Translations under genes and position numbers: made by a program
Notes under the pieces: generated by a model
What the model saw: only the letters and a program-made list of their open reading frames with translations
What the model was told of the DNA's origin: nothing
Database searches by the model: none
Assembly: GCA_002372735.1 (NCBI GenBank)
Contig: DFIE01000087.1
Location: forward strand, 1-20,769
Direction of reading: 5' to 3'
DNA: 20,769 nt
Source: Clostridiales bacterium UBA3705
Lineage (GTDB): Bacteria; Bacillota_A; Clostridia; Oscillospirales; Oscillospiraceae
In this document: piece by piece, positions 4,443 through 18,312 of the stretch
Position numbering within the stretch: the first letter of the stretch is position 1
Layout: the number at the start of each line of letters is the position of its first letter

Positions 4443-5594
4443 TTATAACTCCAATTGCGTGGTTTTTTCATCACAGGCGATCACCTCGGCCCCCTGCTCC
4501 CAGGCGCCCAGCTGCCGGGCGTCGGCGGGGTCCAGCACCAGGGTGACCCGGTTGCCGTGGCACAGCAGGGACAGGTCCGGGGCCGGATAGGTGGAGAACA
4601 CCGCCACATGGGCATAGGCGCACATGGCGTGCTCCCGGCCGAAGCTGCCGGCCACGGTGGTCTGCCCGGGGCCGATGGGCTGCTCCAGCAGCGCCGCCAG
4701 GGCGGGCAGCAGGTCCTCGGGCTGCCGGATCTCCCGGCTGCAGTAGGTGTCGGTCTGCCGGTGGGTCCAGCCCAGCACATGGTCGATACCCTGGGCGGTG
4801 AGCTCACCGGACACCGCCGCCAGCCGGGCCAGCAGCAGGTCCATCCCGTGGGGGGTCAGCTCGGTGCCGGGGATCCCGGTGGTCTCCGCCAGCAGGAGCA
4901 TCCGCTCCACAATGGGCAGGCCGAACTCCCGGACCAGGAGCTTGTCGGTTTTTTGGGAGAGCTTCCAGTGGATCTGCCGCAGGGGATCCCCGGGGACGTA
5001 CTCCCGGATGCGGAAGGTCTCGCTGGGGTCATAGCCCGGCTTTTGGGCGGAGTACAGCTGGCTGTCCTGCAAAAAGTCCCCGCTCTGCCCCAGGCGGACG
5101 CTGAGCCGCCAGGTCTTGGGCAGCACCAGGCAGACTGCCGGCTCCCCCGCCCAGGCGGGCCTGGCCCACAGGCCCAGCCAATCCACCTGCCGGCAGCCGC
5201 TGAGCTCCAGGTGCACCGCCCCGCAGTGGTCCGGGGTCAGGGTAATGGGGGTGGCCCCCTCCCCTGTCCGGCGGGGCCGCAGGGTCAGGGCCATGGACTG
5301 GCTTTGGCCGGTCATGGCGTTGCGGGCGGTGAGCACGCAGCGCAGCCGCACCGGCAGCAGGCCGGTCCGCCGGGCCCGGAGCAGCACCTCTGCGCTCTGG
5401 CCCAGCTCCAGCTGCCCGGGGGCGGACAGGGTCACCTCTCCCCCGCCGGGGGCCAGGTACAGCCACAGGGCGGAGACCAGGGGCGCCGCCAGGGCCCCGG
5501 CCAGCAGCAGACGGGTGCCCGTCCCGTTGTCAAACACGTAGGCCCCGACGCAGGCCAGCACAAACCCCAGCCAGGCGATTCTGGTTTTCCACAT
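4443..5594 (-). CDS. DUF58 domain protein
   Basis: This is a 383-residue protein of the DUF58 family, the standard partner of MoxR ATPases. Two hydrophobic segments (about 5-22 and 28-47) anchor it in the membrane, a beta-rich region follows, and residues 197-215 carry the family signature REYVPGDPLRQIHWKLSQK. The remainder resembles a von Willebrand-like fold. In other bacteria MoxR-DUF58 pairs act as chaperone-like systems for envelope or metal-containing complexes; that role is by analogy. The start is uncertain: ATG 5594 lies one base after the MoxR stop (TGA-G-ATG), while ATG 5609 is 5 codons longer and has AAGG upstream. It ends one base before the next gene, so the two are translationally coupled. 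Confidence 0.9.
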   Translation of the reverse strand: MWKTRIAWLGFVLACVGAYVFDNGTGTRLLLAGALAAPLVSALWLYLAPGGGEVTLSAPGQLELGQSAEVLLRARRTGLLPVRLRCVLTARNAMTGQSQSMALTLRPRRTGEGATPITLTPDHCGAVHLELSGCRQVDWLGLWARPAWAGEPAVCLVLPKTWRLSVRLGQSGDFLQDSQLYSAQKPGYDPSETFRIREYVPGDPLRQIHWKLSQKTDKLLVREFGLPIVERMLLLAETTGIPGTELTPHGMDLLLARLAAVSGELTAQGIDHVLGWTHRQTDTYCSREIRQPEDLLPALAALLEQPIGPGQTTVAGSFGREHAMCAYAHVAVFSTYPAPDLSLLCHGNRVTLVLDPADARQLGAWEQGAEVIACDEKTTQLEL

Positions 5595-10704: not shown

Positions 10705-10991
10705 ATTTCAATCCACCCTCCCTGTTGGGCAAGACCGTAGGGGCCGATGCCTACATCGGCCCTGCCTTCGATTTCAGACCACCCTCCCCGTGATGGGGGA
10801 GGGACTGTCACTGGATGCCGGCTGCGAAGGATTGAATATTTCAACCCACCCTCCCTGTTGGGCAAGACCGTAGGGGCCGAACTCGAAGAGTCACAGAGTA
10901 TGCCCACATCGGCCCTGCTTGCAATTCCAGGCCACCCTCTCCGCGCAGGGGGAGGGACTGAATTAAGGCTTGACACCTTGCCATCAACAAC
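10705..10991 (-). repeat. Decayed distal end of the CRISPR array (at least four degenerate repeats)
   Basis: Four damaged repeat copies lie at 10705-10735, 10771-10805, 10838-10868 and 10924-10958, with spacer-like gaps of 35, 32, 55 and 33 bases. Copies 1 and 3 keep the ATTTCAA...CCACCCTCCC half, then change to TGTTGGGCAAGAC. Copies 2 and 4 keep the hairpin and GGGAGGGAC end, with small insertions in the loop. A fifth remnant may end at 10668 (GTGGAGGGTGGGAC), 36 bases before copy 1. The gaps after copies 1 and 3 both hold a GGGCCGA...CATCGGCCC palindrome. This is the trailer end, oldest in the usual model, where repeats decay. Confidence 0.75.
10741..10762. repeat. Palindromic element inside the decayed array (second copy 10873-10915)
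   Basis: GGGCCGATG (10741-10749) and CATCGGCCC (10754-10762) form a perfect 9-base inverted repeat around CCTA, inside GTAGGGGCCGA...CATCGGCCCTGC. A second copy at 10873-10915 is interrupted by an extra 20 bases (10881-10900). The form is like dispersed intergenic palindromes (REP-like), but genome-wide copy number cannot be seen here. Confidence 0.6.
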
Positions 10992-11894
10992 ATTTCAATC
11001 CACCCTCCACGTGGGGGGAGGGACAATACCCCGGCGGGGATATCTGGGTAATCATAGATATTTCAATCCACCCTCCCCGTGGGGGGAGGGACCAAAAACG
11101 CAATACAGGCCAGGGAAACGGCCCAATTTCAATCCACCCTCCCCGTGGGGGGAGGGATGCGAGCTGGCCGCACAGATCGAGGACGGCATTTTTATTTCAA
11201 TCCACCCTCCCCGTGGGGGGAGGGACGTGGAGCACTCCGGCGCCCACGGCCAGATCCGCAATATTTCAATCCACCCTCCCCGTGGGGGGAGGGACAAGGT
11301 CGGATATGTCCGGGTCAGCAGTGCTGATCAATTTCAATCCACCCTCCCCGTGGGGGGAGGGACTCCGGCAGTCTCAGGCACACGCATTGAGCGCGGATTT
11401 CAATCCACCCTCCCCGTGGGGGGAGGGACGTCGCAGAAGTCGCTATAATCCCGGTAATCTGTAATTTCAATCCACCCTCCCCGTGGGGGGAGGGACCACC
11501 GCCACACCCGCCCCGGAGGTCACGAGGGCAATTTCAATCCACCCTCCCCGTGGGGGGAGGGACCTCTCGCCCGGTTTTGCACAGGATTTGCCGTCAAATT
11601 TCAATCCACCCTCCCCGTGGGGGGAGGGACTCAAGGCGCCCTGGATATCACCCTGCGCCGCTTTATTTCAATCCACCCTCCCCGTGGGGGGAGGGACGTG
11701 ATAATCACCTCGTTCTGCTCCCTCAGACCATTTCAATCCACCCTCCCCGTGGGGGGAGGGACGATATGTGCGAGGAATGCTACAACAAATTCCTGATTTC
11801 AATCCACCCTCCCCGTGGGGGGAGGGACGTAGCGGCTCATCGGGCCGCCCTCGCCAGCAAGATTTCAATCCACCCTCCCCGTGGGGGGAGGGAC
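10992..11894 (-). CRISPR. CRISPR array, 14 well-preserved 33-bp repeats with 13 spacers
   Basis: Repeats start at 10992, 11060, 11126, 11194, 11263, 11331, 11397, 11464, 11531, 11598, 11665, 11730, 11796 and 11862 (plus coordinates). Read on the minus strand each begins GTCCCTCC, has stem arms CCCTCCCC and GGGGAGGG around CCAC, and ends TGGATTGAAAT. That is the type I-C repeat form, whose processing leaves an 11-nt 5' handle. The copy at 10992 has one changed base in the stem-loop and the copy at 11126 a changed end base; the others are identical. Spacers are 32-36 bases. Transcription runs on the minus strand, the same direction as the cas operon, so the leader lies at 11895-12129 and the newest spacer should be 11829-11861. 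Decay at the low-coordinate end supports this polarity. Confidence 0.98.
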
Positions 11895-12129
11895 AGCAAA
11901 AGTGCACAATTTGTACTGTTGAAAATTGTGCGCTTTGCGCGAACAGGCTGATTTTCTGCCTGTTTCTTCGGTTTTGCGCCGGCATTGGGCCTGCCGAAGG
12001 CCGGTCAGACCCAGCCTTTGACCCCCACCATGCCGGATTTCAGGGTATTTGCTTTGTGCGAAGCACCGGGCAGTTTCCTGTGCGATTCCACTTCGCACGG
12101 CGAAGGCGCCCATTGCCAAACAGGCCGCC
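11895..12129 (-). promoter_or_regulatory. CRISPR leader between cas3 and the array
   Basis: These 235 bases carry no gene. The part next to the first repeat is AT-rich and holds a near-perfect 14-base inverted repeat: 11899-11912 with 11923-11936, one mismatch, core GCACAATTT/AAATTGTGC, only 4 bases from the repeat. Other inverted repeats are AACAGGC/GCCTGTT (11942-11948 with 11958-11964) and GTGCGAAG/CTTCGCAC (12056-12063 with 12091-12098). I see no convincing -35/-10 pair, so the array could also be read from the cas operon. No clear intrinsic terminator follows cas3. Confidence 0.7.
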
Positions 12130-14382
12130 TTAATCCTCGGGAGATCCGTCCTTGGTTTTTAAGCAATCCAGCACGCCTGCCATCATGCCGAGAAAGCTGT
12201 CATAACGCATGTTCCAATCGTAAACACCGACACCCGCCAGCAGCTCCTGCAGCCCGTATTCCTTTACTCTGGCTGCACGGATCGGGATACCCATTTTCTG
12301 GAGTTCTTTCCAGTCCGCCTGCCCACACCGAAGCTTCTGCTTCAGCCCTTCGTCTGCGACGGCCAGGACGGTGTTCTCCGAGATTACCCGGAATTTCTCA
12401 CAGACCGTTGGGAAATCTTTGTTTTTCTCTGCCAGCAGCAGCGCTTTTGATAACTCCGTTCCCCGGTCAAGCTCCCGCCGGATGGCTCCTGTGCACAGGC
12501 GCGGACTGATTTCCCTGCCCCTGTCAAAATAATCCTCCAGCACGCTACGGGCATCCTGCAGCGCCGGATTCTGTGTGATCCATTTCTGCTCCCGGAGCTT
12601 GAACGTCCAGATCTCTGCGTCTGCGTATTCTCCGTTTCTGCCGACCCGTCCTGCCGCCTGCAGCAGAGAAAGCAGAGACGCCAGCTCCCGAAACCCGGTA
12701 TGAAAGGAGAAATCTACCCCAGCTTCCACGCAGGAGGTGGCAACCAGAGTCCAGTCCGTGTCAGGGTCATCCGGCGTCTTCCCCTTGCAGCGCTCCAGCC
12801 GCGCCTTGATTTGCCGGATTGTAGTTTCCCTGTCTGCAGGACTCAGCGCAGTGGACAAATGCATGACCTTGCCCTGCATAGGATCGAGCTTGTACTTATG
12901 TCCATAGGACGAGCGAAGCCCATCTGCCACCACCGCTGCCGTTTGCACTGTGTTTACAATGACGATTCGCGGCCCGGGAGCGGATTTGATGGCAGAATAT
13001 AACTCGGCACAGGAGAGTGGCTTTTGAAATCTGGAAAAACGGATTCTGTGCTGTTCATAGGCCGCAAGACGGGCTCGCAAATTTCCAGGAACCAACTGCG
13101 GCACCTTACGCTCTGTCTCAGAAACTTCCGCAAGCTTCCAGAATTCCACCAGAGAGCCCGAGGCCAGCAACCAATAGCAGCCCCAGTGATCCGCCAGGAT
13201 CTGCATCCACCTCCACGCCAGGGGCAGCAGTCTCACCGGCAACGCAGCATGCGCTTCATCCAGGAATATCAGACTCCCGGGCAGCTCATGGAGCTTTCGC
13301 AGGGCAGCGGGGCGATTTGAAGCAAGGGTTTCAAAAAAGGCAACTGCGGTCGTCACTACGATCGGCGCTCTCCATTGGGCACTGTACGCACGAAAGAGCG
13401 CGTTTTGGAAATCTGCTCTGTGATGGAGCTCCGCCACTACTTCCTGCGGATCCTCCCCGGGGAGGACCAGCGCTTCCCGGTAGGCTTGCACCGACTGGCA
13501 GATAATGTTTGTGAAAGGGAGAACCACAAAGATGCGTCTGGCCCTGCGGTTGATGGCCTGCCGCAGCAAATGGGCCATGACAGCGGTAGTTTTCCCGGAG
13601 CCGACAGGGCTGTCACAGGCAGTGATTGTATCGTGGATGACTGCATCGCGGCATTCCCGATACATCTCCCCGCGGAGGATGTTGCGTTCTTCCTGCGGCT
13701 TGAAGCGCCCGATATAGGCATTCAATTGTTCAAGTCTTTCCGCGGCACGGAGCTTTGGGGCGGCTATATCAGAGGGATATTGGTTGTAATGAATGGCAGT
13801 ATCCGTGTGATCCGCGTCCGCCAGGCAGGACAATTCCATACGGCAAAACACGCCTTCGTCTGCCTGTATCGCGGCATTGATTCCACTCGGAGGCGAATGT
13901 CTGACCAGAGTCTTATGCAATTGCAGAAGGGTTTCCAGTTCCGCGTCTGTACGCTTCCTGGTTTCCGGATTCTTGTCACGGTATCGTGTGTTAGCGTAAA
14001 GCGACTCCTCTTGAATGCTCGGCAGGCCGCGATGATGGGAATAAACCATAAGGGCAGCCAAATCGCCGCAATGGCCCGGCATCTTCAAGAGCGCCGCAGC
14101 GCCAGCATCTGCGTGATTCGTCGGAAGACGCTTCCGTTCCCCCGTACCATTCAGTGCCTCTTGGTTTTCCGGCGTCAGTTTGCCCAAATCATGATAATAT
14201 CCCGCATCGGAAGCACATTGTACCAACGCGGCAGCATCCGTACTGTTGCAAAGGGGCTGGCCGTCAGCTCTGTAGGCAGCCGCTCTTGCGTTGGCGACCG
14301 CGCCAACGGAAACGTTTTTTACATGGGCAGTATATGACTGGGGAGGAGCGCCTTCAAAAGCGCTATGGGCTAAGTATTCCAT
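12130..14382 (-). CDS. cas3: Cas3 helicase-nuclease
   Basis: This protein of 750 residues nicks and degrades target DNA after recruitment by the effector complex. The N-terminal HD nuclease has His20, His64-Asp65 in YYHDLGK, His90, His116-His117 and Asp-rich ADADHTD (188-194). The superfamily 2 helicase has Walker A PVGSGKTT (259-266), DEAH (375-378), motif V CVEAGVDF (551-558) and motif VI QAAGRVGRNG (575-584). Motif III reads LASGS where the family usually has SAT, a mild deviation. The start ATG 14382 shares one base with the cas7 stop (TGATG), so translation is coupled; a further upstream ATG at 14490 lies inside cas7 and is unlikely. In type I-C operons cas3 is normally first; here it is last, next to the array leader. 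Confidence 0.95.
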   Translation of the reverse strand: MEYLAHSAFEGAPPQSYTAHVKNVSVGAVANARAAAYRADGQPLCNSTDAAALVQCASDAGYYHDLGKLTPENQEALNGTGERKRLPTNHADAGAAALLKMPGHCGDLAALMVYSHHRGLPSIQEESLYANTRYRDKNPETRKRTDAELETLLQLHKTLVRHSPPSGINAAIQADEGVFCRMELSCLADADHTDTAIHYNQYPSDIAAPKLRAAERLEQLNAYIGRFKPQEERNILRGEMYRECRDAVIHDTITACDSPVGSGKTTAVMAHLLRQAINRRARRIFVVLPFTNIICQSVQAYREALVLPGEDPQEVVAELHHRADFQNALFRAYSAQWRAPIVVTTAVAFFETLASNRPAALRKLHELPGSLIFLDEAHAALPVRLLPLAWRWMQILADHWGCYWLLASGSLVEFWKLAEVSETERKVPQLVPGNLRARLAAYEQHRIRFSRFQKPLSCAELYSAIKSAPGPRIVIVNTVQTAAVVADGLRSSYGHKYKLDPMQGKVMHLSTALSPADRETTIRQIKARLERCKGKTPDDPDTDWTLVATSCVEAGVDFSFHTGFRELASLLSLLQAAGRVGRNGEYADAEIWTFKLREQKWITQNPALQDARSVLEDYFDRGREISPRLCTGAIRRELDRGTELSKALLLAEKNKDFPTVCEKFRVISENTVLAVADEGLKQKLRCGQADWKELQKMGIPIRAARVKEYGLQELLAGVGVYDWNMRYDSFLGMMAGVLDCLKTKDGSPED

Positions 14383-15269
14383 CAGGGGTTGACCAGATCT
14401 ATGCAGCTGCCTACACGGCGCAGCAGCTCCTCCGGAAGTGCAGATTTGTCCAGATAATCTGCCCAGGATTCGGAGGGGTCTGTGCTGCATCCAATCCGCT
14501 CAGGCATCAAGGCCTCCAGCAGCAGGTAGTCGGGGCAGCTTCCCAAATTGTTCTTGTGCTCGATGTACCATGCGTGACGCAGACGCACATCCGGGCGGAC
14601 GGCGGAACGATTCAGATCGTAGAGGTAGGGTATCGCCAGCTTCAGCAGTTCGATATCTTCTGCCTTACAGCCGGTTTTCCCGGCGCAATTGGGGTTCACA
14701 AAGAAGGGCATGCAGTAGACACCGTGTTCCACAACCCGATATGCCAACGGCGCCATACCAGCTTTTTTCCCTTCCTGAACACCGGCCTTGCTGGTATTGG
14801 TGTGGCGAACGATGCGGATCGGAGCAATTGACAGCCCCATTCCCATCTGCACCACCCCGGTCTTGATGTACCCCTTGTTGCCGCCCTCCTCCAAGAAGGT
14901 GTTGCCAAATACGCGGGCGTCCCAATACTTTCTGACAAAGGGACTTTTCAGGAACTGTTCCTGATCGAATTCCTGAAGACGCTTTCCCATTTCAGCCTTG
15001 ATAGTATTTCTGTCACGGCCCCGGGTTTCCAGGATCTGATAACAATCAGGCTCCGCCAGGAAGGACTCAGGCAGATTCTGAAAAAAAGGTGCTTCATGCT
15101 CCCCGATCAGATCCCGGATCTTCCGCTTGACAGACACGGGAGAAATCTCGCCCAGACCGTTATCCCGCATTCTGGGGTCGGATTCCCGATCCGGGTCGCC
15201 ATTGGGATTGGAATTTACCACTTCAATCACCAGCAAACCGGTCGCTCTTTTGATATCGTTCTGTGCCAT
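14382..15269 (-). CDS. cas7: Cas7 (Csd2-like) backbone protein of the type I-C complex
   Basis: This 295-residue subunit polymerises along the crRNA guide. The N-terminus GLLVIEVVNSNPNGDPD (residues 11-27) is the Cas7/Csd2 signature (family form NxNPNGDPD), followed by SVKRKIRDLIG. Near 165-175 is VYCMPFFVNPNCAGKTG, and ELLKLAIPYLYDLNRSAVRPDVRL follows, as in the family. Its start ATG 15269 has AAAGGAG 8 bases upstream. It begins 19 bases after the cas8 stop and overlaps cas3 by one base. The protein looks divergent from classical Csd2, but the fold assignment is safe. Confidence 0.93.
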   Translation of the reverse strand: MAQNDIKRATGLLVIEVVNSNPNGDPDRESDPRMRDNGLGEISPVSVKRKIRDLIGEHEAPFFQNLPESFLAEPDCYQILETRGRDRNTIKAEMGKRLQEFDQEQFLKSPFVRKYWDARVFGNTFLEEGGNKGYIKTGVVQMGMGLSIAPIRIVRHTNTSKAGVQEGKKAGMAPLAYRVVEHGVYCMPFFVNPNCAGKTGCKAEDIELLKLAIPYLYDLNRSAVRPDVRLRHAWYIEHKNNLGSCPDYLLLEALMPERIGCSTDPSESWADYLDKSALPEELLRRVGSCIDLVNP

Positions 15270-15288: not shown

Positions 15289-15738
15289 TTAATCACGTTC
15301 TGCTTCTGTGGATTGCATAGACTGTGCGGGTTCCTTTTTGGGGAAGGATGCAAGATAGCCAAGGAATAGTTTGGCTTTTTCCGTATCGGAGAAGCGTGTG
15401 TTGGGCTCCAGCACCGGCAGCAGCTTGTCCGCGATTTGGGAGAACACAGACAGATAGTAGCCCGCACTGGGTCCATCGGCTGTTTCGCCGTTTTTCTTTA
15501 TTGTCTCAAGGCGCTCGTTCTGATGGCTTCTCGCCCAATTGAGATAAGGCTTCATCCTTTGCAGCAATTGCACAAGCGTTTGGTTCGGATGGTCTGCCGC
15601 TGATGTATAGAGACTCCCTCCAATCAGCTGCGGCATAGCGTTCTGATTGTTGTTTCCCCTAACCTTTACACAATACAGCTCATGCAGATAATCCGCAGCC
15701 TTCAGCATCTGCCCCAGCAGATATGGATACTCGTTCAT
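15289..15738 (-). CDS. cas11: Predicted Cas11c small subunit from an internal start in cas8c
   Basis: Within cas8c, ATG 15738 (codon 545, same frame) is preceded by AGAAAGGAAGATTAT, a good ribosome site at correct spacing. Translation from it would give 149 residues, MNEYPYLLGQMLKAADYLHE to the cas8c stop, almost all helical by composition. In type I-C systems the small subunit Cas11c is known to be produced this way, from the 3' end of cas8, and several copies line the complex. The sequence evidence is the ribosome site, the frame and the size. No separate small-subunit gene exists in the operon, which supports the reading. No direct evidence of translation is available here. Confidence 0.75.
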   Translation of the reverse strand: MNEYPYLLGQMLKAADYLHELYCVKVRGNNNQNAMPQLIGGSLYTSAADHPNQTLVQLLQRMKPYLNWARSHQNERLETIKKNGETADGPSAGYYLSVFSQIADKLLPVLEPNTRFSDTEKAKLFLGYLASFPKKEPAQSMQSTEAERD

Positions 15739-17370
15739 ATAATCTTCCTTTCTATGGTTTGTCCAATAGAGCAACATTCCCAACAGCACCAGTACAGACT
15801 GCAAATTGTTAATCATTTGAAGATCCTGACTATGTGTGCGATTAAGGCGTGCGCCTGCATACACTGCAAGAGGCTTTGTATTTTTCACCAGAATCCGCAG
15901 GTCCTCCCGCAACACTTGCTCAGTAACTCCGAAGAACAGCTCCACGCCGTGAAACGCCGGTACCTCCCTGTACTTTTTATCCAGAACGCTGCCGTCTTGC
16001 TTCCAAATCCGATTGATGATTCCGGCAACGCGAAGAGGGAATGGTACCCAGGGCCTGCCGAAGTGGTACTGCGGCAGATTAGCGGCAGCCTCCTGCCAGG
16101 AATTGCTTCTCTGAATCACTTCATTCGGCGCGACATTGTGGGTATATACCACCTTTGTGCGCGCTTTATCCAATTTACGAAGCACAAAGAATTGGATCCA
16201 TTCGGGGTAACGGTCCGGATCAAGAGCCTTTGTCTCGGTCAAATATTCTGCGAAATCCTTGGCCTTTGCCTCAAACAGCCCTTCTCGGGCTGCCTCATCC
16301 GCAGGCTTTTGAAACGTTCCTGTCAGGGATGGTATTTTCTCGGGCAGTTTAGAGGGATATACAAACAGGGCTTCATTTTCCCCAATTCGCGCCCAGGTTT
16401 TATCCATGCGCTCCTTCCGGGAGAGCCACTCCAAAGCAGCGCTCAGCTCCGCGCGTTTCTCTTTTGAGATAGGATATGACCCATTTTCAATCTCCCCGTA
16501 TCGAAATTGACAGGGCTGGCCATGGAACATGGTGCGGAGGGTCACCTCAAACCCGGCATCCAGCTTCACCTTGGGCATCGTATCTGCCAGCGGTATGTAT
16601 CGCTTGCCAAAGGCGTCAAGCATCTCGCTGGGTGAATCCTTTTGCGCTGCAGTGTCTGCCTGGATCAGCGCATGGTTCAGGGCTCTTGCAAACCTGGGGC
16701 CAACAGTAGACCACCCTTCATCGATCAGATCCTCTGTGTCCAACACCACAGAGAGTTTTCCGGTCTCAGCGTTCTCTTCTTCCTTCTGGGTAGGCATATA
16801 AAACAATATTTGCAGCGCAGGCACAATACCCTCCCTGTTTTCAAGCATCTCAAGCGCTTTTCGTTCCAGCTCGTGAAACAGGATAGAAGGGTCTTGAAAA
16901 GCCTCTGCGGCACGGATCAACTCTAGAGCCGGCTCAAAGGGATTCTCCCCCAGCAGGCATTCCAGGTCATGGGGTCGTATCAGAAAATTCTGGCGGTACT
17001 TCTTCAGAAACTTTGGCGTCCAGTTGGAAGAAACACACCAGGACCGAACCTTCTTTAAGTTCATTCCCTGTCCTTGAGCCCCGATCAACGAGGAGATTTC
17101 CTTTTTCCTCTCGTCATCTGTAATGCGATACAGCGGTGTCAGATTCATCGCCGGGAAAGCGCCTTGGTTGTCTCCATAGCGCCGTATATTGACGCCCTTT
17201 TCCGCAGGGACGCTGACAAGCTTCGATATTCGGGTACCGTCCAAAACAATCTGAATGCAAGGGCTGTCCTCTTTGATGTTGGAGATGGGCCCGTACCTGT
17301 GATGCCAGGCAGAAGCGGAGATATTTGCGTTCTCCATGGCCGCAGCCAGTCGGTTGATTTCGTTAATCAC
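15289..17370 (-). CDS. cas8c: Cas8c (Csd1-like) large subunit
   Basis: This large subunit of 693 residues recognises the PAM and starts DNA unwinding. The start is GTG 17370, overlapping the cas5 stop as GTGA with AGAAGGGAGG 8 bases upstream; the in-frame ATG at 17400 has no such support. There are few recognisable motifs, as is normal for Cas8. The assignment rests on position between Cas5 and Cas7, length, and a helical C-terminus (YLLGQMLKAADYLHELY onward) like that of Csd1. The sequence seems divergent from well-known Cas8c proteins, so a distinct I-C branch is possible. The C-terminal 149 residues may also be made separately (see the internal start at 15738). Confidence 0.85.
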   Translation of the reverse strand: MINEINRLAAAMENANISASAWHHRYGPISNIKEDSPCIQIVLDGTRISKLVSVPAEKGVNIRRYGDNQGAFPAMNLTPLYRITDDERKKEISSLIGAQGQGMNLKKVRSWCVSSNWTPKFLKKYRQNFLIRPHDLECLLGENPFEPALELIRAAEAFQDPSILFHELERKALEMLENREGIVPALQILFYMPTQKEEENAETGKLSVVLDTEDLIDEGWSTVGPRFARALNHALIQADTAAQKDSPSEMLDAFGKRYIPLADTMPKVKLDAGFEVTLRTMFHGQPCQFRYGEIENGSYPISKEKRAELSAALEWLSRKERMDKTWARIGENEALFVYPSKLPEKIPSLTGTFQKPADEAAREGLFEAKAKDFAEYLTETKALDPDRYPEWIQFFVLRKLDKARTKVVYTHNVAPNEVIQRSNSWQEAAANLPQYHFGRPWVPFPLRVAGIINRIWKQDGSVLDKKYREVPAFHGVELFFGVTEQVLREDLRILVKNTKPLAVYAGARLNRTHSQDLQMINNLQSVLVLLGMLLYWTNHRKEDYMNEYPYLLGQMLKAADYLHELYCVKVRGNNNQNAMPQLIGGSLYTSAADHPNQTLVQLLQRMKPYLNWARSHQNERLETIKKNGETADGPSAGYYLSVFSQIADKLLPVLEPNTRFSDTEKAKLFLGYLASFPKKEPAQSMQSTEAERD

Positions 17371-18038
17371 GTTGTGGCCTCCCTTCTGGTGGGAAAGCAC
17401 AAGACTCCTCGCCGGATCATCAGATCTGTGTCATAGGTTGGGAAAAACTTTGATTGATATCCCTTTGAAAAGGTCTGTCGAAGCATTGAAGGAATGACTA
17501 TGCCGTCCACGGCCTCGCAAACCTGGGTCCCGTCCCGGAAGGGTCCAAAATACGAAGGCGTAAATTCCTGCCACCCCATGCAAATCGTCGAATACATTTG
17601 CCCCCTCGACAGCCTGCGATAAAACATTTCCTGATAGGCATGGCCGGGCGACGTTGTCCGCCGGTCCCATCGTCTGGCACATTCCGGCAGCTTATCCTTG
17701 TGAGGATTCGGTCTCGCAATCGCGTAAAGGCGATAGCATACATCTGTCAGTACTGTTGCATAGAATTGATAAGAGTTTCCATCTTTTATGTTTTTAGAAT
17801 CTCGCAGAGGACCGCCATAATTAGTTGCATAACTGTGATATTGAATCGGTGCACAAATCTCCACCCTTGTCGGAACAATCTCAACTGCCGGACCCCAAAG
17901 AATCGCTTCAAACATCCCTTTCACTGCGGCATAAGTTGGAGCAGGATAAGAGACAGGAGAGTCTCCAGTGTCCGGACGTGTCCAAATTGCTGTATTGCCT
18001 GCGATTTCCATTTGGATCGGGTATTCCAACTGGACCAT
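17367..18038 (-). CDS. cas5c: Cas5 (Cas5d-like) crRNA-processing subunit
   Basis: This is a 223-residue RAMP protein and the first gene of the cas operon. The N-terminal MEIAGNTAIWTRPDTGDSPV is followed by SYPAPTYAAVKGMFEAILWGP (about 29-49), matching the Cas5d pattern in which a Ser/Tyr-rich turn precedes AxxGxxEAIxW. In type I-C, which lacks Cas6, Cas5d cuts the repeat at the 3' base of its hairpin and caps the crRNA handle. The array repeat and the stand-alone repeat at 18229-18256 both have the hairpin-plus-11-nt form this enzyme needs. ATG 18038 has AAAGGAGGGAAGG upstream. It ends in a GTGA overlap with cas8c. Catalytic residues cannot be assigned without alignment. Confidence 0.9.
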   Translation of the reverse strand: MVQLEYPIQMEIAGNTAIWTRPDTGDSPVSYPAPTYAAVKGMFEAILWGPAVEIVPTRVEICAPIQYHSYATNYGGPLRDSKNIKDGNSYQFYATVLTDVCYRLYAIARPNPHKDKLPECARRWDRRTTSPGHAYQEMFYRRLSRGQMYSTICMGWQEFTPSYFGPFRDGTQVCEAVDGIVIPSMLRQTFSKGYQSKFFPTYDTDLMIRRGVLCFPTRREATT

Positions 18039-18097: not shown

Positions 18098-18126
18098 AGA
18101 ATACCATACATCACCCTGCGTGTCAA
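18098..18126 (-). promoter_or_regulatory. Promoter of the cas operon
   Basis: On the minus strand TTGACA (18126-18121), a 17-base spacer, then TATTCT (18103-18098) with TGG before it (extended -10). AT-rich DNA (AATATTTTT) immediately upstream could act as an UP element. The start is expected near 18091, giving a leader of about 52 nt to ATG 18038. An ACCATACA direct repeat (18071-18078 and 18103-18110, plus strand, 32 bases apart) flanks the start region. Confidence 0.85.
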
Positions 18127-18137
18127 CAGCAAAAATA

Positions 18138-18157
18138 TTCATGTATGAAAAATAGGA
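18138..18157 (+). promoter_or_regulatory. Putative self-target (TTC PAM plus protospacer) upstream of the cas promoter
   Basis: TTC at 18138-18140 is followed by ATGTATGAAAAATAGGA (18141-18157). The guide of the divergent crRNA-like RNA is ATGTTTTGAAACATAGGA (18257-18274). Without a gap only the first four bases match in a row. With one extra guide base at position 5-6, bases 1-4, 7-11 and 13-18 match. The site ends 11 bases upstream of the cas -35 box and lies between the two divergent promoters. TTC is the known type I-C PAM. Binding here could block the cas promoter without complete R-loop formation; this is inference. Confidence 0.55.
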
Positions 18158-18172
18158 AACTAATTCGATCTA

Positions 18173-18201
18173 TTGATTTTCCGCAGGATTTCGTGTACAA
18201 T
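18173..18201 (+). promoter_or_regulatory. Promoter of the crRNA-like RNA
   Basis: TTGATT (18173-18178), 17 bases, TACAAT (18196-18201). This is a near-consensus sigma-70 promoter pointing away from the cas operon. The -35 boxes of the two divergent promoters are 46 bases apart and the putative self-target lies between them. Transcription should begin near 18208. Confidence 0.8.
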
Positions 18202-18207
18202 ATTGCT

Positions 18208-18312
18208 GCCGGTACTCTATCGGTACGCCGTTGTCTAACACAACGTGGATTGAAATATGTTTTGAAACATAGGAGAAAGATCACGCTTTCAACCGCGTGT
18301 TCTTTCTTTTTT
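18208..18312 (+). ncRNA. Stand-alone crRNA-like RNA upstream of the cas operon (CreR-like candidate)
   Basis: This is a transcription unit of about 105 nt with its own promoter and terminator and no plausible protein. Positions 18229-18256 form a CRISPR-repeat-like element: stem arms CGTTGT and ACAACG around CTAAC, then TGGATTGAAAT directly after the stem. That 11-nt tail is identical to the handle of the array repeats and sits at the same place relative to the hairpin, while the stem sequence is different. An 18-nt guide-like segment follows (18257-18274), then the terminator in place of a second repeat. Cas5d could therefore process it and load it into the effector. It is in the crRNA sense, not antisense. 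Similar mini-CRISPR RNAs (CreR, CreA) are known to guide Cas complexes to cas or toxin promoters in other subtypes; equivalence here is inferred. Confidence 0.75.
18275..18312 (+). terminator. Intrinsic terminator of the crRNA-like RNA
   Basis: GAAAGATCACGC (18275-18286) pairs with GCGTGTTCTTTC (18295-18306), 11 pairs and one T-T mismatch, loop TTTCAACC, followed by six T (18307-18312). There is no protein gene on this strand before it, so its purpose is to end the small RNA. Confidence 0.85.

Follow-up and report, generated by a model that had tools for sequence, protein, structure and literature searches.

A single-repeat crRNA-like element upstream of cas5 in type I-C-like CRISPR–Cas loci: a predicted repressor of the cas operon

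The cas locus and the stand-alone element

The window (the whole 20,769-nucleotide stretch of contig DFIE01000087.1 that was analysed) carries on its minus strand a type I-C-like operon with the gene order cas5–cas8–cas7–cas3, followed by a CRISPR array. A crRNA-like element is located upstream of cas5 and antisense to it. The features are as follows.

17367..18038, minus strand: cas5, of Cas5c/d type and diverged (PADLOC Cas5c, E = 2.3e-25; NCBIfam Cas5d, 60 bits, below the cut-off of 85)
15289..17400, minus strand: cas8, a Cas8c variant (PADLOC PDLC01562 Cas8c, E = 7e-185)
14382..15269, minus strand: cas7 (Pfam Cas_Cas7, E = 8.5e-55)
12130..14490, minus strand: cas3 (PADLOC Cas3c, E = 7e-99); the start of the open reading frame overlaps cas7, so the start is provisional
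10992..11894, minus strand: CRISPR array with 14 in-register repeats; degenerate repeats extend out to 10705
18098..18126, minus strand: predicted cas operon promoter, TTGACA-17-TATTCT (consensus scan)
18138..18157, plus strand: damaged target, consisting of a TTC PAM (18138–18140) and the protospacer ATGTATGAAAAATAGGA (18141–18157)
18173..18201, plus strand: predicted promoter of the crRNA-like RNA, TTGATT-17-TACAAT (9/12 consensus matches)
18229..18245, plus strand: diverged repeat-like hairpin CGTTGT-CTAAC-ACAACG, abutting the handle (fold prediction)
18246..18256, plus strand: 5' handle TGGATTGAAAT, the same as the end of the array repeat
18257..18274, plus strand: guide ATGTTTTGAAACATAGGA, its first 12 nt the same as in the guide of the related locus L003
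18272..18312, plus strand: intrinsic terminator (stem 18282–18299 and T run)

For the Cas8 of the window NCBIfam gave no match, and Pfam Cas_Csd1 matched only below its cut-off. None of cas4, cas1 and cas2 fits into the 235 nt that separate cas3 from the array (11894–12130). Downstream of their effector genes, relatives encode Cas4 and Cas1 (L003 and L017) or Cas4 and Cas2 with a Cas1 tail (L016). The degenerate repeats at the far end of the array (10705–10960) are accompanied by long similar units (D3 and D8).

A promoter, a hairpin, an exact handle, a guide and a terminator had been proposed upstream of cas5 in the initial annotation, and all were located at the coordinates that it gave. The −35 box TTGATT (18173–18178) and the −10 box TACAAT (18196–18201) of the element are separated by a 17-nt spacer; the counterpart in L003 is TTGACA-17-TACAAT, situated 43 nt before the handle compared with 44 nt in the window. 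Allowing at most one mismatch, the 11-nt handle was found 17 times in the window (0.22 expected from shuffles). Sixteen copies lie at the array and one in the element, which therefore holds the single non-array copy, in agreement with the earlier claim that the exact handle of the array repeats recurs in a solitary element. Folding of the 105-nt RNA of the element gave z = −3.9 (200 shuffles). Scans for promoter-like sites (three, against 1.0 expected) and for terminator-like sites (two, against 0.7 expected) are each weak when taken alone. The element is regarded as beyond chance because it is conserved in relatives, not on the strength of the window alone. It had no match in Rfam at the gathering thresholds. 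The start of the guide, ATGTTTTGAAACAT (18257–18270), is palindromic, which makes self-folding possible; the full palindrome is absent from the L003 guide.

Guides and targets in relatives

An alignment of 34 Cas8 proteins led to 21 loci from genome contigs. A search of further genomes returned duplicates and fragments together with L029 and L040, giving 23 distinct relatives with a stretch upstream of cas5 (394 nt available in L006 and 419 nt in L029). L022–L028, L033–L036 and L039 were left out as duplicates, L030–L032, L037 and L041 for a missing cas5, and L038 for an upstream stretch of 51 nt. The loci are not all independent, because L008, L011 and L016 are close kin. No relatives of Cas8 were found in viral contigs.

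A solitary handle lies upstream of cas5 in antisense orientation in ten relatives (L001, L003, L008–L012, L016, L017 and L040) and in sense orientation in L005. The repeat-handle unit is thus set apart from the working array in the window and 11 relatives, the exception being L006, in which the guide unit is not solitary and lies inside the array. The expectation that handle and hairpin would recur upstream of cas5 in related genomes was borne out for a solitary handle in 11 of the 23; the hairpin is kept but is weak in some, since the folding energy of the 26 nt preceding the handle (calculated without a shuffle control) ranges from −14.2 kcal/mol in L040 to −1.1 kcal/mol in L017, with −1.4 kcal/mol in L012. 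A promoter-like site of their own scoring at least 9/12 was present in eight of the ten relatives examined (none in L001 and L017), and stems following the guide were present in all ten, as scanned without a shuffle control; L005 and L006 are outside this set of ten.

A site flanked by TTC, close to the predicted cas5 promoter, is matched by the guide that follows the repeat handle in 12 of the 23 relatives. Seed positions 1–5 and 7–11 are matched at 10/10 in 11 of these 12 relatives and at 9/10 in L009. Eleven distinct seeds occur among the 12 guides, one being common to L008 and L016; L008 and L011 differ at seed positions 4, 5 and 9, in guide and target alike. The in-array guide of L006 matches 16 consecutive nucleotides of the cas5 promoter region. 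In the remaining 11 pairs (L006 excluded), positions 1–5, 7, 8, 10, 11 and 13 are matched in 11/11 and position 9 in 10/11; the corresponding counts are 5/11 at position 6, 1/11 at position 12, 6/11 at position 17 and 3/11 at position 18. In guides of type I systems the bases at positions 6 and 12 are flipped out, and it is at these two positions that the mismatches in the relatives concentrate.

Nine relatives were tested with their own guides, which scored 13–15/15; swaps between loci reached at most 12, except for the seed-sharing pair L008/L016. The observed score was reached by none of 300 shuffled guides in eight of the nine, and by 2 of 300 in L012. One might take the element for a leftover array repeat followed by a chance guide and devoid of function, all the more as degenerate repeats are present at the far end of the array too. 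Guide and promoter site co-vary over 11 distinct seeds beside TTC, however, and the window element is flanked by promoter-like and terminator-like sequences, so that we judge such an origin very improbable. Still less probable is an RNA anti-CRISPR of phage type (Racr), which would occupy Cas proteins by mimicking a repeat. The element resembles the Racrs in being a solitary, single repeat-like unit (PMC10651486), but it lies within a host cas locus and the guides of its relatives match the cas promoter region of that locus. Nor was a phage origin of the Racr kind indicated by the viral sequences searched: an exact copy of handle plus guide is absent from the viral contigs, and the region has no match in phage records.

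On the cas strand of each of the 12 relatives, a promoter-like site overlaps the target or is at most 20 nt away from it; these predicted promoters score 8–12/12 in a scan made around the target only and without a shuffle control. The site scores only 8/12 in L012, and in L006 it has 12/12 consensus bases and is overlapped by the target. The target is upstream of the best-scoring predicted −35 box in four loci (the window, L003, L005 and L009), a less obvious place for blocking transcription. No convincing guide–target pair was found in 11 of the 23 relatives (L002, L004, L007, the variant operon of L013, L014, L015, L018–L021 and L029). With looser handles, weak matches were obtained at 8/10 of the seed in L002, L004, L019 and L020 and at 9/10 in L029; the latter was left out, as it scores 10/15 overall and derives from AGGATTGAAAA inside the cas8 match.

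The pairing was also searched for with fewer assumptions. The whole loci of 24 variants, the window included, were searched on both strands without a PAM rule and with positions 6 and 12 uncounted. The 26 solitary handles yielded 11 matches, all of them (11/11) beside TTC. The window contributed none, and one match, in L013, is that of an adjacent canonical type I-C operon. A further search dispensed with both the PAM rule and the flip rule and took the best match of each of 48 solitary handles in 64 loci, skipping handles beside masked bases and targets resembling repeats or handles. All seven matches at 15/17 or better were beside TTC; at 13/17 or better there were 28 matches, 14 beside TTC and 14 beside other triplets. 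In the 14 TTC matches at this threshold, mismatches fall at position 6 in 9/14, at position 12 in 12/14 and at positions 1–5 and 7–11 in 3/140. Mismatches are enriched at positions 6 and 12 over all 28 matches, TTC or not (Fisher p = 1.3e-7). Among the 24 of 28 matches listed, which include all 14 with TTC, three non-TTC matches score 14/17 (two from L018 and, with a handle on the array side, one from the window).

The target of the window

The target by the cas promoter of the window is one base short with respect to the guide and has one further difference, the corresponding place in L003 being TTC-ATGTTTTGAAA. The distance from the target to the predicted cas −35 box downstream of it is 11 nt in the window and 10 nt in L003. 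Among the TTC sites of the whole window the best-seeded one is this site by the cas promoter (7/10). Scored without gaps, the best match is 11/15, which was equalled by 24 of 300 shuffles and is unremarkable; the window guide scores 12 in the L003 region, above the 11 in its own. With one gap allowed the window target reached 14/15, a score attained by none of 5000 shuffled guides in a 135-nt region, in a test designed post hoc after the match had been noticed. The gapped alignment matches 9/10 seed positions and positions 13–18, and two of the best three alignments place one of the two differences (the missing base and the further change) on position 6, which is unpaired. No intact target for the guide was found within the window, the best score of non-TTC type being 12/15 at 15073 with GGC, and no guide behind the handle-like stretches of the window reached 8/10 against the cas5 upstream region.

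A seed paired at positions 1–5 and 7–11 beside the PAM was found in relatives and not in the window itself, and the window copy is grouped with the family because of its likeness to L003 rather than through its own pairing. As the target is one base short, repression in the window would be reduced or absent unless a one-base bulge were tolerated. In CreA, the RNA of the CreTA module, a change at any of the ten seed positions abolished function (PMC8501985); by that rule repression in the window would likewise be lost or weak. The simplest reading of these alignments is recent damage, on the promoter side, to a formerly intact pair. Any loss looks recent because the gapped match keeps 9/10 of the seed and positions 13–18, with one of the two differences assignable to position 6.

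The RNA of the window may by now be a relic, that is, a once working Cas-regulating RNA with little or no remaining effect after its promoter site had changed. A target one base short within the seed suggests as much, and the lack of room for cas4, cas1 or cas2 between cas3 and the array, unlike in the relatives, would suit a declining locus. Against this, no part of the element (promoter, hairpin, exact handle, guide or terminator) has been lost, 12 guide bases are the same as in L003, and an assembly error or bulge tolerance are alternatives for the altered target. We consider a relic a serious possibility, at somewhat less than even chances.

Canonical type I-C loci and predicted function

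A match to canonical Cas8c was present in 77 of 299 genomes of the phylum, and 40 stretches from 39 of the 77 were examined, a non-random choice made for contig room. The strict test kept 22 of 24 handles (those beside masked bases were skipped) and was passed in three of the 40 stretches, all with TTC, the pairs lying between cas3 and cas5 in L078 and L089 and upstream of cas3 in L080. A looser search that included array repeats gave no excess of TTC (15 TTC against 33 GGT, 22 AAG, 5 GCA and 3 CTA); without the PAM rule, masked bases and array repeats (L095) produced many false non-TTC matches in canonical loci. Two candidates were set aside: L083, in which the target is within an open reading frame of the cas operon and the handle is altered, and L091, in which the handle is AGGATTGAAAC and the match is 10/15 at a distance of 11.7 kb. 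In L013 a guide and a TTC target (4677–4998) lie upstream of cas3 in a canonical type I-C operon beside the variant operon of the same genome. In the canonical locus L074 (3100–3330) a degenerate repeat and short spacer among the array repeats match 10/10 of the seed at a TTC site at most 40 nt upstream of cas3; this candidate is treated as a lead only, at 11/15 overall and among array repeats.

The pairing rule is shared with CreA of the CreTA modules from type I-B haloarchaea, for which a TTC PAM and seed positions 1–5 and 7–11 have been described (PMC8501985); CreA of Haloarcula hispanica likewise has one diverged repeat and a T-rich terminator (PMC8501985). An antitoxin RNA that silences an adjacent small toxin gene could accordingly look much like the present element. 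In 12/12 relatives, however, the predicted promoter close to the matched site is one of the cas5 strand and not a known toxin promoter, and in the three canonical loci the matched site is upstream of cas3 or cas5. The look for a toxin gene was limited to the list of open reading frames of the window, where a tiny RNA toxin would not show. A CreTA module appears improbable on these grounds.

CreR resembles a crRNA and pairs over a limited length with the promoter of the cas operon to which it belongs (Liu et al., 2023, Cell Host Microbe, as cited in PMC13131331, PMC12948488 and PMC12737573), has been termed analogous to CreA (PMC12948488) and has been reported for types I-B, I-E and V-A (review PMC13131331), the same three types that the initial annotation had listed. 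No CreR of type I-C appeared in the titles and abstract starts of the matches listed, subscription papers lying mostly outside the search, and the term 'I-C' had no match in the accessible text of PMC9458426 or PMC8501985. TTC has been named for a type I-C system (PMC8406640).

We consider it highly probable that the element is a single-repeat crRNA-like gene of CreR design, whose RNA is predicted to be taken up by the type I-C complex and to repress its operon. This rests on the conserved handle and guide, the seed match within the own locus, the TTC PAM, the mismatches at the flipped positions and the location near a predicted promoter, all of which were observed here. The design of CreR/CreA had been proposed from the window alone. 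It is supported for the family, in which 12 of 23 relatives have a handle with a target in the promoter region and show the PAM and seed of CreA; for the window copy it carries the caveat of a damaged target, one base short. The likeness to CreR lies in the crRNA-like form and in a short stretch of pairing with the own cas promoter. The differences from it are the type I-C setting with a handle presumably produced by Cas5 instead of Cas6, the single repeat with a terminator in the loci examined closely (the L006 unit being inside the array) and the damaged target of the window.

Since the guides match DNA near the predicted cas promoter in 12 of 23 relatives, the element likely steers the CRISPR complex to turn down its own genes. 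We infer the following course from the sequences, covering expression, processing by Cas5, loading, repression and release. Transcription of the RNA would start at its own promoter and stop at the terminator. The handle of type I-C crRNAs is made by Cas5, not Cas6, and Cas5 would produce the 11-nt handle by cleaving behind the hairpin. Cas5–Cas7–Cas8 would then bring the RNA to the cas promoter, where the pairing is probably too short for destruction of the site by Cas3, so that binding would merely hinder RNA polymerase. If the complex were drawn off by normal crRNAs or by anti-CRISPR proteins, cas expression would be expected to rise.

On balance we favour, with some reserve, the wider proposal that RNA-guided self-repression is a general and fast-evolving layer of type I-C systems. 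Guides would repeatedly re-target the cas promoter, some being born from arrays (L006 and perhaps L074), would shift between antisense, sense, cas3–cas5 and in-array places, and could be switched off by a small change at the promoter site, as in the window. If the CreR reading is correct, RNA-guided self-regulation of cas genes extends to type I-C, for which it is not described in the papers found. The variety of seeds and places, together with the in-array case, would give insight into the emergence of regulators from immune memory, and the damaged pair of the window into their loss. The search recipe (handle, TTC and seed positions 1–5 and 7–11) needs only sequence and is applicable to all type I-C loci, and the guide–promoter pairs are open to simple reporter testing.

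Two further observations concern arrays of relatives. In L006 (6460–7000) an array spacer beside degenerate repeats matches the cas5 promoter region, possibly representing the birth of a regulator from the array. In L012 a spacer behind an array repeat (17916) matches the TTC site of the stand-alone guide, at 9/10 of the seed and 9/15 overall.
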